The notes beneath the pieces were generated by a model. The model had not been told where the DNA came from and ran no database searches. It saw only the letters and a program-made list of their open reading frames with translations. This document shows, piece after piece, positions 4,171 through 40,724 of a DNA stretch of 45,993 nucleotides (position 1 is its first letter; each line of letters begins with the position of its first letter). Made by a program: the position numbers and the translations under genes. This DNA comes from an uncultured Rhodospirillales bacterium (GTDB taxonomy: Bacteria; Pseudomonadota; Alphaproteobacteria; Acetobacterales; Acetobacteraceae), in assembly GCA_903843125.1 (NCBI GenBank), contig CAIMOR010000055.1:1-45993 (forward strand), written 5' to 3'.

Positions 4171-4947
4171 TCAGCTCCCCTGGCCCGGGTTCTTCAGCCC
4201 GGCGGCGAAGCGGGCATTGCCCTCAGCCGCGGCGGTGGTCTGGCTCTTGATGGTGGTATTGACCATCTGGCCGTAGTCCATCGCGTCCTGCCAGTTGGTG
4301 ATGACCTGCGGGATCTTGTCCAGCGCACGCTTGCTCTCGCGCAGCGCCACGGCGTCGAACTGCGCCACCTTCTGCGCCAGTGCCGCGGCGGTGGGCAGCA
4401 GGTCGTCGGGTTCGACACACTGGTTCACCATGCCCCAGCGTTCGGCGGTGGCGCCGTCGATGCGGTTGGTGGTCAGCACCAGCCAGGCCGCCTGCTTGCG
4501 TGTGACGCCCGAGAGCTGGATCGCCGGGCCGGCCATGCCGGGATAGGTCGCAAAGCCCATCTCCGGGCAGCCGATGCTGGCCTTCGTGCTGGCGATGGCC
4601 AAGTCGCATACGTTGATCAGCGTGGCGCCGCCGCCCAGTGCCAGGCCGTTGACGGCGGCGATGAAGATCGAAGGGTGGGCGCGGATCGCCATGGTCACCG
4701 CGATCCACTCCTCGCCGGCGCCCTCGATGCCGGCGCGGCGGTCGGCCTCGCGCTCCTTCAGGTCCATGCCGGCGCAGAACGCCACGCCGGTGCCGGTCAG
4801 CACGATGGCCTTGGCCTTGCCCTTCAGGCTCTCGAAGGCGGCCAGCAGGCCCTGGCGCGTGGCGCGGTTCATCGCGTTGCGCTGGGCCTCGCGGTTCACC
4901 TGCAACTGCGCCCAGCCGTCATGCTGGGTGATGATGAGGTCGCTCAT
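4171..4947 (-). CDS. Enoyl-CoA hydratase/isomerase family protein (1)
   Basis: This is a 258-residue crotonase-fold protein. FCAGMDLKE (about 57-65) and GLALGGGATL (101-110) form the CoA-thioester oxyanion hole. Of the two catalytic glutamates of true enoyl-CoA hydratases, the one in GCPEMG is kept (E129), but the one that should follow GGG is threonine (T109, GGGATL). This points to an isomerase, hydrolase or other crotonase reaction rather than plain hydration. The ATG at 4947 lies just after the DUF35 gene (stop at 4951), so the genes are almost certainly cotranscribed with the thiolase-like protein and CoA-transferase. Confidence 0.88.
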   Translation of the reverse strand: MSDLIITQHDGWAQLQVNREAQRNAMNRATRQGLLAAFESLKGKAKAIVLTGTGVAFCAGMDLKEREADRRAGIEGAGEEWIAVTMAIRAHPSIFIAAVNGLALGGGATLINVCDLAIASTKASIGCPEMGFATYPGMAGPAIQLSGVTRKQAAWLVLTTNRIDGATAERWGMVNQCVEPDDLLPTAAALAQKVAQFDAVALRESKRALDKIPQVITNWQDAMDYGQMVNTTIKSQTTAAAEGNARFAAGLKNPGQGS

Positions 4948-28318: not shown

Positions 28319-28472
28319 GCGGTCGAAAAGCCCCCCAATCCCCTGGAGTCGTCTCACAGACTGAAGCAATGCTGACTGATTCGCTACGGCGGCGCTTCGG
28401 ACCAGGGCGGGGGGATGATTCCGAGGCGGTCCCACACTACGGTAAGGCATCGGGACGGAACAGGAGCCGAGC

Positions 28473-29663
28473 ATGGCTGAAAACAACACGCGCGATGCCT
28501 GCATCGTCGGCTGGGCGCATAACCCCTTCGGCCGGCGGGACGACGCGCCGGACCTGGAAAGCCTGATCGCCGGCGTCGCCCGCGCCGCGATCGAGGATGC
28601 CGGCATCAGCCCGGCCGAGGTGGATGCCGGCTTCGTGGGCGTGTTCGGCGAGGGCTTCACCAACCAGGGTTTTCCGTCCTCCCTGGTGCTGCAGGCCCTG
28701 CCGGAGCTGCGCTTCAAGCCACTGACCCGGTACGAGAATGCCTGCGCCACCGGCACCGCCGCCATCCATGGCGCGCTGGACTTCCTGGCGGCCAGGCGCG
28801 GCCGCTTCGCCCTTGTGGTCGGCGCCGAGAAGATGACCGCGACGCCGGGCAAGCAGGTGGGCGAACTGCTGCTGAACGCCAGCTACCGCAAGACCGAGCA
28901 GGGCATCGACGGTGGCTTCGCCGGCGTCTTCGGCAAGATTGCCGAGGCCTATTTCCAGCGCTGGGGCGACAGCTCCGACGCGCTGGCCGCCATTGCAGCC
29001 AAGAACCACGCCAATGGCTGCGACAACCCCTATGCGCAGATGCGCAGGGATCTCGGCTTCGAGTTCTGCCGCACCGAGAGCGAGAAGAATCCCTTCGTGG
29101 CAGGCCCGCTGAAGCGCACCGATTGCAGCCTGGTCAGCGACGGCGCCGCCGCGCTCGTCATCACCGATGCCGAGACGGCCAAGGCGATGCAGAAGGCGGT
29201 GCGCTTCCGCGCGGCGGTGCAGGTCAACGACTACCTGCCCATCGCCAGCCGCGACATCCTGAAGTTCGAGGGCCCGGCGCTGGCCTGGCAGCAGGCGCTG
29301 GCCGCCGCCGGCCTCGGCAGCGTCATGGACCTCAGCTTCGTCGAGACGCATGACTGCTTCACGGTGGCCGAGCTGATCGAATACGAGGCGATGGGCCTGG
29401 TGCCGGAAGGGCAGGGCGCCCGCGCCGTGCTGGAAGGTTGGACCGCGAAGGACGGCCGCCTGCCGGTCAACCGCTCCGGCGGGCTGAAGGCCAAGGGCCA
29501 CCCGATCGGCGCCACCGGCGTCAGCATGCACGCCATCGCGGCCATGCAGCTGACCGGCCAGGCCGGGGCGATGCAACTCGAAAAGGCAGACCGTGCCGGC
29601 ATCTTCAACATGGGCGGCGCCGCGGTGGCCAATTACGTCAGCATCCTGGAACGGATGCCGTAG
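28473..29663 (+). CDS. SCP2-type thiolase / acetyl-CoA acyltransferase
   Basis: This 396-residue thiolase has the active cysteine in ENACATGTAA (about 88-97) and the C-terminal catalytic histidine in GHPIGATG, with ETHDCF also present. In contrast to the thiolase-like protein at 5358-6497, it has the full catalytic set. It cleaves beta-ketoacyl-CoA or condenses acyl-CoAs; the chain length is unknown. The ATG at 28473 has AGGAG 8 nt upstream. It is divergent from the histidine kinase and has no partner gene downstream. Just after the stop lies a sigma-54-like promoter. Confidence 0.89.
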   Translation: MAENNTRDACIVGWAHNPFGRRDDAPDLESLIAGVARAAIEDAGISPAEVDAGFVGVFGEGFTNQGFPSSLVLQALPELRFKPLTRYENACATGTAAIHGALDFLAARRGRFALVVGAEKMTATPGKQVGELLLNASYRKTEQGIDGGFAGVFGKIAEAYFQRWGDSSDALAAIAAKNHANGCDNPYAQMRRDLGFEFCRTESEKNPFVAGPLKRTDCSLVSDGAAALVITDAETAKAMQKAVRFRAAVQVNDYLPIASRDILKFEGPALAWQQALAAAGLGSVMDLSFVETHDCFTVAELIEYEAMGLVPEGQGARAVLEGWTAKDGRLPVNRSGGLKAKGHPIGATGVSMHAIAAMQLTGQAGAMQLEKADRAGIFNMGGAAVANYVSILERMP

Positions 29664-29664
29664 T

Positions 29665-29680
29665 TGGCACGCGATATGCA
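29665..29680 (+). promoter_or_regulatory. Sigma-54-like (-24/-12) promoter
   Basis: TGGCAC, five bases, then ATGCA; GG (29666-29667) and GC (29678-29679) are 12 bp apart as required, with one mismatch to the TTGCA half. It begins two bases after the thiolase stop and points away from the thiolase, toward a 100-bp stretch with no protein gene on the plus strand. Start of transcription would be near 29691. Confidence 0.4.
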
Positions 29681-29690
29681 ATGAGGCTGT

Positions 29691-29766
29691 GGCCGCCGGG
29701 CGACTGCACTCCCGGCATCTCCTCCTGTTCCCAAGTGTCGGGGCTGCCCTGGGGCGGCCCCGATTT
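29691..29766 (+). ncRNA. Candidate small RNA with anti-Shine-Dalgarno CTCCTCC motif
   Basis: From the predicted start at about 29691 the transcript would fold as GCCGGG (29695-29700) with CCCGGC (29711-29716) around a 10-nt loop. An unpaired stretch follows with CTCCTCC (29719-29725), which can pair with Shine-Dalgarno sequences. A terminator-like stem (29739-29762) ends it. This is the plan of known trans-acting small RNAs (5' hairpin, exposed C/U-rich seed, terminator). hfq is encoded 11 kb away. It could also be no more than the thiolase 3' UTR and terminator. Confidence 0.4.
29739..29766. terminator. Terminator-like hairpin between thiolase and ispDF
   Basis: CGGGGCTGCC (29739-29748) pairs with GGCGGCCCCG (29753-29762) with one G-U pair and the loop CTGG, followed by ATTT. 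It can end transcripts on the plus strand and, being symmetrical, the convergent ispDF transcript. Confidence 0.6.
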
Positions 29767-29781
29767 GCGTAGGGGCCCGGC

Positions 29782-30939
29782 TCAGGCGAAGGGCAGCAGC
29801 ACCGTCGCCGCGGCCTGGCAGGCAATGCCCTCGCCGCGGCCGGTGAAGCCCAGCCGCTCCGTCGTCGTCGCCTTCACGCTCACCCGGCCGCGCGGCACGC
29901 CCAGCAGCGCGGCCAGGCGCTGTTCCATGGCGTCGCGATGCGGGCCGATCCGCGGGCGCTCGCACATCAGGGTCACGTCCACATTGGCCAGCACGCCGCC
30001 GCGCGCCGCCACGCGTTCCGCCGCGTGCACCAGGAACTGCGCGCTGTCGGCGTCCTTCCACGTCATCTGGCTGGGCGGGAACCAGGTGCCGATATCGCCC
30101 TCGGCCAGCGCGCCATAGATCGCATCGCACAACGCGTGGATGCCGACATCGGCATCCGAATGGCCTTCCAACCCAAACTCGCTGGGCACCTCGACACCGC
30201 AGAGGATCATCCTGCGGCCGATCTCGGTGCGATGCACGTCGAAGCCGGTGCCGACGCGGGGAACAAGGCGGGACATCAGCATGGCCTCCACGCGGTCCAG
30301 GTCTTCGGGGAAGGTGATCTTGATATTGGTCTCGCTGCCCGCCACCAGCGCCACGGCCAGCCCTTGGGCTTCGAGGATGGAGGCGTCGTCGGTGCCTTCC
30401 TCCGTCATCGCCCGATGCGCGGCCAGCAACGCGCCGTAGCGGAAGGCCTGCGGGGTCTGGGCGCGGAACAGGCCGGTGCGGGGCACCGTCTCCACGATGA
30501 CGCCCGCCGCGCCGCGCTTAAGCGTATCGGCCACCGGTTGGGCCGGGACGGCGCCGGGGTGGCGTTCCAGCGCCGCCAGCAGGCGCGGGATGGTGCCGGC
30601 GGGCACCACCGGGCGGGCGCTGTCGTGCACCAGCACCACCTCCGGCGCGTGCGGCCCCAGGGCTTCCAGCCCGTTCCGCACGCTGTCCTGCCTTGTCGCG
30701 CCACCGACCACGGGGGGCAGGTGCGGCAGGCCGGCCAGCATGGCGGCAATCTCGGCCTCCTCGCCGGCCGGGCAGACCGGTTGCAGCAGCGTCACCAGGC
30801 CCTCGGCCAGCAGCGCCTCGGCGGCGTGGCGCAGCACCGGGCGGCCAAGCAGCGGCAGGTACTGCTTCGGCCGGTCGGCGCCGAAGCGGGTGCCGCGGCC
30901 GGCGGCCAGCAGCAGGGCGGCAATGCGGGGTTTGGTCAT
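29782..30939 (-). CDS. ispDF: Bifunctional IspD/IspF (MEP pathway)
   Basis: This 385-residue fusion carries 2-C-methyl-D-erythritol 4-phosphate cytidylyltransferase (about 1-225) and 2-C-methyl-D-erythritol 2,4-cyclodiphosphate synthase (about 228-385), steps of isoprenoid synthesis. IspD shows [11 protein letters not shown] with K25 (PKQYLPL), VHDSARP and the TDDASILE region. IspF shows the zinc ligands D234 and H236 (GFDVHR), HSDADV (260-265), DIGTWFPP and the C-terminal [16 protein letters not shown]. Such fusions are typical of alphaproteobacteria. The start is the ATG at 30939 ([14 protein letters not shown]). It is divergent from dusB. Confidence 0.95.
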
Positions 30940-31076
30940 GGCGCGGCACCCATACCAGCGGCGCGGCAAACCGCAAGCGCCGGGCTTCGCCGCACGGGCG
31001 TGGGCGGCCCGCAGCGCAGCGCAGCATAGGTGGCGGGGGCCACCGAGGCAGGGTGACATATTATTAGGCGATTACC

Positions 31077-31111: not shown

Positions 31112-32212
31112 ATGATGAGCATCAGCCCTGCAATTCCGGCCGCGGCGTTGTCAACCCTGGCCCCGATCGAGGTCGGCAGCGTGCGCGTGGCCGTGCCAGT
31201 TTACCTGGCGCCGATGTCCGGCGTCACCGACCTGCCGTTCCGCCGGCTGGCCCGGCGCCTCGGCACCGGCATGGTGGTCTCCGAGATGATCGCCAGCCAG
31301 GCGATGGTGCGGGAGAACCGGCAGACCCTGAAGATGGCGGAGGTCGATGGCTTCGGCGCGCCCTCCGCGGTGCAGCTGGCTGGCTGCGACCCGCAGACCA
31401 TGGCCGAGGCGGCCAGGCTGGCGGCCGACCGTGGCGCCGCGATCATCGACATCAACTTCGGCTGCCCGGTGAAGAAGGTGGCGCTGGGCCAGTCCGCCGG
31501 CAGCGCGCTGATGCGTGACGAACTGCGCGCCGCCGCGATCCTGGAAGCCACCGTCAAGGCGGTGGACGTGCCGGTGACGCTGAAGATGCGCATGGGCTGG
31601 GACCACAACAGCCTGAACGCGCCGAAGCTGGCGCGCATCGCCGAGGACTGCGGCATCCGCCTGGTCACGGTGCATGGCCGCACCCGGCAGATGTTCTACA
31701 ACGGCACCGCCGACTGGGCCTTCATCCGCACGGTCAAGGAGGCGGTCTCCATTCCCGTGCTGGCCAACGGCGATATCCTGACCCCGCTGCACGCCGCCGA
31801 GGCATTGCGGCTTTCCGGTGCCGATGGCGTGATGATCGGCCGCGCCTGCTACGGCCGGCCCTGGCTGCCGCGCATGGTCGCCGAATACCTGGCCACCGGC
31901 GTGCTGCCGCCGGAACCCCCTTTGGCCGAGCAACTGGCGATTCTGCTGGAGCACTACCGCGACATCATGCAGCACCACGGCCGCAACACCGGCGTGCGCC
32001 TGGCCCGCAAGCATGTCGCCTGGTATTCCAAGGGCCTGCCCGGCAGCGCGGAGTTCCGCAGCCAGGTGAATACGGTGGACACGCCCGAGCAGGTGGAAGC
32101 GCTGATCCACGCCTTCTACACCCCGCTGCTGGACAAGGGGCTGGAGGCGATCCGCGCCGAATTCCAGGCCCGCGGGCATGATGCCGACGAAGCGAACAGG
32201 ATGGCCGCATGA
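31112..32212 (+). CDS. dusB: tRNA-dihydrouridine synthase DusB (NifR3)
   Basis: This 366-residue flavoprotein reduces uridines in tRNA with NADPH and is the standard first gene of alphaproteobacterial ntr operons (old name nifR3). The TIM-barrel FMN motifs are visible: [14 protein letters not shown] (31-44), the active-site C118 in [25 protein letters not shown] and NGDI. An in-frame ATG at 31094 lies inside the putative promoter spacer with GGAAGG too close, so 31112 was preferred. It overlaps ntrB by 4 bp. Confidence 0.93.
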
Positions 32213-40394: not shown

Positions 40395-40724
40395 ATGGCC
40401 GCCGAAAAATCCCAGAACGTGCAGGACGTGTTCCTGAACCACGTGCGCAAAAGCAAGACTCCGGTGACGATCTTCCTCGTCAATGGCGTCAAGCTGCAGG
40501 GCATCATCACTTGGTTCGACAATTTCTCGGTGCTGCTGCGCCGGGACGGCCATACCCAGCTGGTGTACAAGCACGCCATCAGCACGGTGATGCCGGGCGC
40601 GCCGATCATGCTGTTCGACCCGCAGGCGGTGCCGGCGGCCGGCACGGCGACAGTGCAGAACGAAGGCGGGCGACTGACGCTGTCCCGCACCACGGAGACG
40701 ACCCCAGCTGCCGACGGCAACTGA
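40395..40724 (+). CDS. hfq: RNA chaperone Hfq
   Basis: This 109-residue protein has the Sm1 motif ([16 protein letters not shown], then [21 protein letters not shown]) and the Sm2 motif (YKHAIST). It forms a ring hexamer that pairs small RNAs with mRNAs. The C-terminal tail (about 72-109) is longer than in many alphaproteobacteria and rich in Ala, Thr and Pro. The ATG at 40395 has AGAGGA about 9 nt upstream; the open frame before it is not Hfq-like. It is followed directly by hflX, whose reading frame overlaps the end of hfq. Confidence 0.96.

Follow-up and report, generated by a model that had tools for sequence, protein, structure and literature searches.

The gap between a thiolase gene and a convergent bifunctional ispDF gene in the window, a 45,993-nucleotide stretch of DNA from an uncultured Rhodospirillales bacterium of the Acetobacteraceae, probably encodes a trans-acting small RNA (sRNA) transcribed from a sigma-54 promoter. 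We regard this element as a diverged positional counterpart of a branch of alpha-r8 RNAs that is linked to thiolase and ispDF genes. A preliminary description of this DNA had already proposed a small RNA at this site; on comparative grounds, that reading appears right in its core and understated, as the module seems to have a conserved counterpart in other genera.

The upstream neighbor of the gap is a gene for a thiolase domain-containing protein on the plus strand (28473–29663; NF005704, 642.4 bits against a cutoff of 412), and the convergent downstream neighbor is ispDF on the minus strand (29782–31059; NF006899, 436.9 bits against a cutoff of 417). The stops at 29663 and 29782 bear out the 118-bp intervening gap between convergent genes given in the preliminary description, and direct reading of the letters located the promoter halves, hairpin, CTCCTCC, and 10-bp stem where it had placed them. 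The candidate sigma-54 (−24/−12) promoter, TTGGCACG-N4-ATGCA, spans 29664–29680 on the plus strand and agrees with the consensus at 12 of 13 positions. It is made up of TGGCAC (29665–29670), N5 (29671–29675), and ATGCA (29676–29680), with GG (29666–29667) and GC (29678–29679) spaced by 12 bp. Judging from homologous RNA loci, transcription is predicted to start at 29691, 12 nt past the −12 GC, with 11 bases intervening between C29679 and this start. On the same strand follows a 5′ hairpin, GCCGGG-N10-CCCGGC (29695–29716; arms at 29695–29700 and 29711–29716), which is conserved in congeners and matched by a covarying stem at the same position in other genera. The presumed anti-Shine-Dalgarno seed, ATCTCCTCCTGTTCCC (29717–29732), includes CTCCTCC at 29719–29725. 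A putative terminator, possibly bidirectional, occupies 29738–29766, where CGGGGCTGCC (29739–29748) pairs with GGCGGCCCCG (29753–29762) to form a GC-rich stem of 10 bp closed by a loop of 4 bases; ATTT (29763–29766) comes next. This 3′ stem was not flagged by a terminator scan of the window and is followed by ATTT in place of the T-tract on which such a scan depends. The plus-strand fold of the stretch is ordinary (z = −0.08, with equal stability in 89 of 200 shuffles), and no Rfam family exceeded its gathering cutoff anywhere in the window.

The consensus used for scoring sigma-54 promoters was YTGGCACG-N4-TTGCW, and the locus displays GG at −24 and GC at −12 in the 12-bp register together with the flanking consensus. 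Allowing at most one mismatch, the window has two sites where 0.36 would be expected, and for the gap alone the expectation is 0.0009; when the pattern is loosened to fit the gap site (WTGCW), it occurs once against 0.026 expected. At up to three mismatches, the window contains 80 matches, below the shuffle mean of 97. The window genome encodes rpoN (E = 3e-68). The proximity of ntrB and ntrC pointed out in the preliminary description holds: ntrB starts at 32209, and ntrC, which starts 3.7 kb from the element, is an NtrC-type activator by its domains (Response_reg, Sigma54_activat, and HTH_8). The hfq gene that had been placed in the neighborhood corresponds to an Hfq-like open reading frame, named by eye without a profile, that ends at 40724. 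A candidate enhancer, TGC-N11-GCA, was present in 8 of 29 upstream stretches against 1.8 expected, a count that is weak because many of these stretches are thiolase coding sequence, the conservation of which confounds it.

Within the genus, we compared six genomes, all of which share the thiolase–ispDF junction. The module lies behind the thiolase in five, with gaps of 113–125 bp; the exception (G001) has a 42-bp gap that retains the 3′ stem alone. TGGCACG-N4-nTGC was found in four of the six genomes and the GG/GC register in a fifth, with neither in the sixth. Conservation of the hairpin and CTCCTCC in relatives, which had been put forward as a test of the small RNA, was found in the congeners: CTCCTCC is identical in four of the five that bear the module and shifted by an indel in the fifth. 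In G002, the promoter is weaker and an indel is present. Across the 10 pairs formed by these five congeners, identity reaches 92% in the sigma-54 columns and 97% in the hairpin arms, compared with 77% at thiolase 4-fold sites. The anti-Shine-Dalgarno stretch (79%), terminator (71%), and hairpin loop (70%) follow, and the lowest values are those of the promoter spacer (38%), start region (49%), and linker (46%), all for blocks drawn with the alignment in view. For the blocks named in advance by the preliminary description, identities are 81% (promoter), 85% (hairpin), 71% (CTCCTCC), and 59% (rest); without G002, they become 91, 82, 100, and 67%. Comparison thereby establishes, at the level of sequence, the promoter, its position, the hairpin, and conservation of the seed. 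Of the small-RNA architecture originally proposed, the promoter, hairpin, anti-Shine-Dalgarno stretch, and stem hold up to comparison, whereas the terminator lacks a T-tract across the genus. A covariance model from the five congeners (R3), which matches there by construction, revealed no convincing second copy in the six genus genomes; its two best extra matches (G001:C227 and G000:C20) are unlike the module, have no preceding sigma-54 site, and look like chance.

A covariance search across Acetobacteraceae had been suggested. Covariance models R1 and R2 brought out a clearer form of the module in other genera, whereas R3, run over 150 family genomes, returned nothing convincing outside the genus; six outside-genus R3 loci that were read have no sigma-54 site before them and look like chance. 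Among 100 distinct thiolase loci, nine (L048, L049, L050, L051, L053, L054, L055, L058, and L060) carry a near-consensus sigma-54 site 11–64 nt past the stop, followed by hairpin, core, and a terminator ending in a stem and T-tract. At L060, the sigma-54-driven sRNA behind the thiolase is present as a tandem duplicate (4241–4356 and 4467–4583). The RNA of this branch is ~90 nt long and strongly conserved; its 5′ hairpin covaries, its core AGCUUAGCCUUCCUCAACC is unpaired, and its terminator ends in a U-tail. Of 299 family genomes, 49 had a match at E ≤ 0.01 to R1, which models the RNA part alone (promoter sequence is absent from the models); chance matches and canonical alpha-r8 RNAs are mixed in with the weaker ones. 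The broader R2 matched 28 of 298 family genomes, in 7 of 102 genera, at E ≤ 1e-6 with one match each; E-values for R1–R3 rest on a shortened calibration. In alignment A10, which was fitted to the structure being counted, 134 cells have changed on both sides yet remain paired, against 35.6 in shuffles; the signal is lost once the pairing is shifted. Comparison likewise establishes the existence of the family outside the genus of the window.

The promoter, too, recurs in other genera. TGGCA-N7-TGC lies upstream of 27 of 41 collected loci, and in all 27 the start of the model is 10–12 nt away; 13 of 8,200 shuffled upstream regions contain the pattern, with base composition only preserved. The 41-row set counts one locus twice (L046 = L152), excludes the duplicates L146, L147, and L052, and includes two canonical alpha-r8 loci (L173 and L174) and a weak one (L072). 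A distance of 10–12 nt from the −12 element to the RNA is the spacing demanded by a sigma-54 start site. Six of the 41 loci, five from genus g68 plus L072, carry a TTGA...CCCATCT-type pattern that we take to be RpoH-like (9 of 8,200 shuffles), and eight carry neither promoter type (L155, L156, L168, L170, L171, L079, L173, and L174, with genus g96 among them). At the g68 loci (L157, L161, L162, L165, and L169), where the RpoH-like pattern replaces sigma-54 and the thiolase is inverted, one sRNA appears to have switched promoters.

Gene neighborhoods were examined for the best 30 loci. Within 1.5-kb flanks, a thiolase is encoded at 18, ispDF at 9, and one or both at 22. The thiolase lies upstream on the RNA strand in 13 of the 18 and is inverted in 5, all from g68. 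ispDF lies downstream on the opposite strand in all nine cases, ~10 bp to ~1 kb off, and the window is alike. None of the best 30 loci has the exact layout of the window, with a same-strand thiolase upstream and a convergent ispDF downstream; the window joins two arrangements found separately elsewhere. At L154, L159, L160, L163, L164, L167, and L172, the gene preceding the sRNA is not a thiolase, and several of the non-thiolase upstream genes share, by eye, a C-terminal stretch like RFARLAARRLEALLDP. The literature surveyed on sigma-54 or Acetobacteraceae alpha-r8 sRNAs, a scope exclusive of the 2016 alpha-r8 phylogenetic study, which may hold part of it, yielded no description of this branch.

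The branch is best placed as a diverged relative of alpha-r8 (RF00519, suhB/MmgR), given that R2 recovers RF00519 loci and that one branch member passes the RF00519 cutoff. Among 289 genomes from the remaining families of the class, 6 had an R2 match at E ≤ 0.001; four of these loci are RF00519 suhB/MmgR, L196 was scanned with no match, and L197 fell outside the scan. Among the nine branch loci scanned, L155, which lies beside a thiolase, scored 45.0 bits and passed the RF00519 cutoff, and the other eight failed. Canonical RF00519 is separate from the branch and matched in 247 of 298 family genomes at E ≤ 0.001. The window genome (G000) has three canonical alpha-r8/suhB loci over the cutoff (C489:1264–1337, C273:11519–11594, and C454:18418–18497), none of them at the gap.

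The window element itself gave no match to RF00519 (gathering cutoff, 41 bits), including over 29600–29830 at E ≤ 5; a genome-wide RF00519 search at E ≤ 10 also returned nothing at the gap. R2 did not match the window element at E ≤ 10 and in the congeners met only the G004 stem. For the G005 counterpart, RF00519 was the best of 4,227 families, over its full length (18.5 bits, E = 0.061). R3, applied to 76 loci outside the five congeners, gave 16 matches at E ≤ 5, the best of which (L158, E = 0.064) is a thiolase-linked sRNA. Six of the 16 fall on known sRNA positions (L158, L165, L170, L200, and two in L199), L159 matches on the sRNA stem, and the other nine lie elsewhere. Both sets of matches, that of G005 and those of R3, are weak and owe part of their score to a GC-rich stem. 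In layout, the element agrees with alpha-r8, as a hairpin precedes its core and a stem-loop follows, and the core, AUCUCCUCCU, is close to, but not identical with, the 10-nt alpha-r8 core UUUCCUCCCU; the U-tract terminator characteristic of alpha-r8 is absent, its place being taken by the stem and ATTT. It also has the location common in the branch, behind a thiolase and convergent with ispDF. To judge from its position, its promoter, and the order of its parts, the window copy appears homologous to the branch; its sequence supports this weakly, and for that reason we have not filed it in RF00519. By analogy, it would work like an RF00519 member. It is the least typical example of the branch and could be degenerating; termination and Hfq binding at this copy are doubtful because ATTT, or worse, replaces the U-tract of its relatives.

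Characterized sRNAs provide a frame for this assignment. Alpha-r8 RNAs are described as consisting of a weak hairpin, UUUCCUCCCU as an unpaired stretch, and a terminator; SisA acts as a repressor of mRNAs by pairing through the anti-Shine-Dalgarno core, and the Caulobacter siblings have promoters reported as unrelated to one another (PMC12559287). MmgR of Sinorhizobium is described as Hfq-dependent, NtrC-activated, and AniA-repressed, and as limiting PHB granules (PMC8401924), and its predicted promoter motifs are tabulated as RpoD and RpoN (PMC7143759). Because an RpoN motif is predicted for MmgR, a sigma-54 link within the alpha-r8 family has precedent. The likeness to alpha-r8 (MmgR of S. 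meliloti and SisA–D of C. crescentus) extends to the order of parts, a size near 77 nt, and the presence of several independently promoted copies, and in the published accounts the nitrogen/NtrC link and the predicted RpoN motif belong to MmgR. The seed differs, being AUCUCCUCCU in the window and CUUAGCCUUCCUCAACC in sister genera rather than UUUCCUCCCU, as do the near-consensus sigma-54 promoter and the thiolase/ispDF site; the window copy further falls below the Rfam cutoff and has no U-tract. NfeR1 (alpha-r14), in which an anti-Shine-Dalgarno CCUCCUCCC silences the ntrB ribosome binding site under nitrogen stress (PMC10746234), shares the CCUCC-type seeds and the nitrogen stress context. 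As described, however, it has three hairpins each bearing the motif, a promoter given no sigma-54 signature, and repression by NtrC (PMC10746234). The CCUCC motif is also shared with CcsR1 (RF02791), a CCUCCUCCC-motif stress RNA, the model of which scored 12.6 bits (E = 0.7) on the G005 counterpart and did not approach its cutoff of 65.3 bits.

With respect to targets, the candidate mRNA-pairing sequences would be CUCCUCC or CUUAGCCUUCCUC. Positions 29722–29731 are complementary, at all 10 nt, to the ribosome binding site of the thiolase, GGAACAGGAG (28457–28466). The corresponding congener sites read GGAACAGGAG in G004 and G003 and GGAAAAGGAG in G005 and G002, and the seeds do not follow; since seeds and thiolase sites do not covary, feedback on the thiolase is a lead only. 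In duplex energies computed for 114 mechanically called open reading frames, the thiolase ranked fifth (−26.5 kcal/mol), and ntrB reached −18.3 kcal/mol.

Other kinds of element were considered and set aside. At up to two mismatches, the window genome contains 99 occurrences of CCCGGCATCTCCTCC, against 29 of a reversed-pattern control; exact identity in G000 is confined to the gap locus, which argues against a dispersed repeat family. As for a small peptide, the predicted RNA (29691–29769) contains no ATG on the plus strand, and the minus-strand frame opened by GGAGGAGATG is not conserved, as it ends after four codons in G004.

Three further explanations account for parts of the same evidence. 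The gap could hold the decaying remnant of an ancestral thiolase-linked sRNA that has lost its core and U-tract, its promoter and hairpin being relics on the way to the loss seen in G001. That the core goes unrecognized by R2, that a T-tract is absent, and that the G002 promoter has weakened would all fit, as would the loss in G001 with no other copy there (the best R3 match, G001:C227, is not of the kind) and the three canonical RF00519 loci that the genome has away from the gap, which could substitute. We nevertheless consider decay rather unlikely, as the promoter columns, hairpin arms, and CTCCTCC equal or exceed the 4-fold sites in most comparisons while their neighbors drift.

It is quite improbable that the gap is an ordinary thiolase 3′ untranslated region with a shared bidirectional terminator, in which the promoter-like sequence arose by chance. 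All six genus genomes show what such a region would offer, a GC-rich stem between convergent genes, and a U-tract would be dispensable if Rho assists; however, a promoter of this quality is hardly expected in the gap at all (the 0.0009 above), it is kept in congeners while its spacer varies freely, and in other genera the same promoter sits 10–12 nt from a conserved RNA. The poor U-tract and the start of convergent ispDF 20 bp past the stem might accommodate a longer sigma-54 transcript that passes the weak stem and serves as an antisense RNA against the 3′ portion of ispDF. Given that a stem and U-tract follow the same promoter in other genera, the ancestral product would therefore have been a short RNA, and we hold the antisense transcript to be highly improbable.

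For the favored reading, a trans-acting sRNA, sigma-54 RNA polymerase would transcribe an RNA of ~75–80 nt, from about 29691 to 29769 on the plus strand, using the promoter at 29664–29680. The 5′ hairpin would present an unpaired CUCCUCC-type seed to Shine-Dalgarno regions in trans, conceivably with the help of Hfq, and pairing would lower translation when the sigma-54 activator is active, for which NtrC is the obvious candidate. Against this explanation, 14 of the 41 branch loci have no sigma-54 site.

More tentatively, the observations may be joined into a single picture of a dedicated Acetobacteraceae branch of alpha-r8 beside thiolase and ispDF, with a rewritten seed and a promoter that alternates between the sigma-54 type in five genera and an RpoH-like one in g68. 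Through such a branch, a sigma-54 signal, be it nitrogen or another, would be tied to the metabolism of acetyl-CoA and of isoprenoids or storage compounds, and the window RNA may also repress its own thiolase through the 10-nt ribosome binding site match. Alpha-r8 RNAs are widespread in Alphaproteobacteria, and few have been characterized. Rfam misses most of this branch, with one of nine scanned loci passing. The changed branch core suggests that the seed is evolvable within the alpha-r8 family, and the near-consensus sigma-54 promoter found in five genera offers a testable link by which sigma-54, perhaps through NtrC, would directly control an anti-Shine-Dalgarno sRNA.
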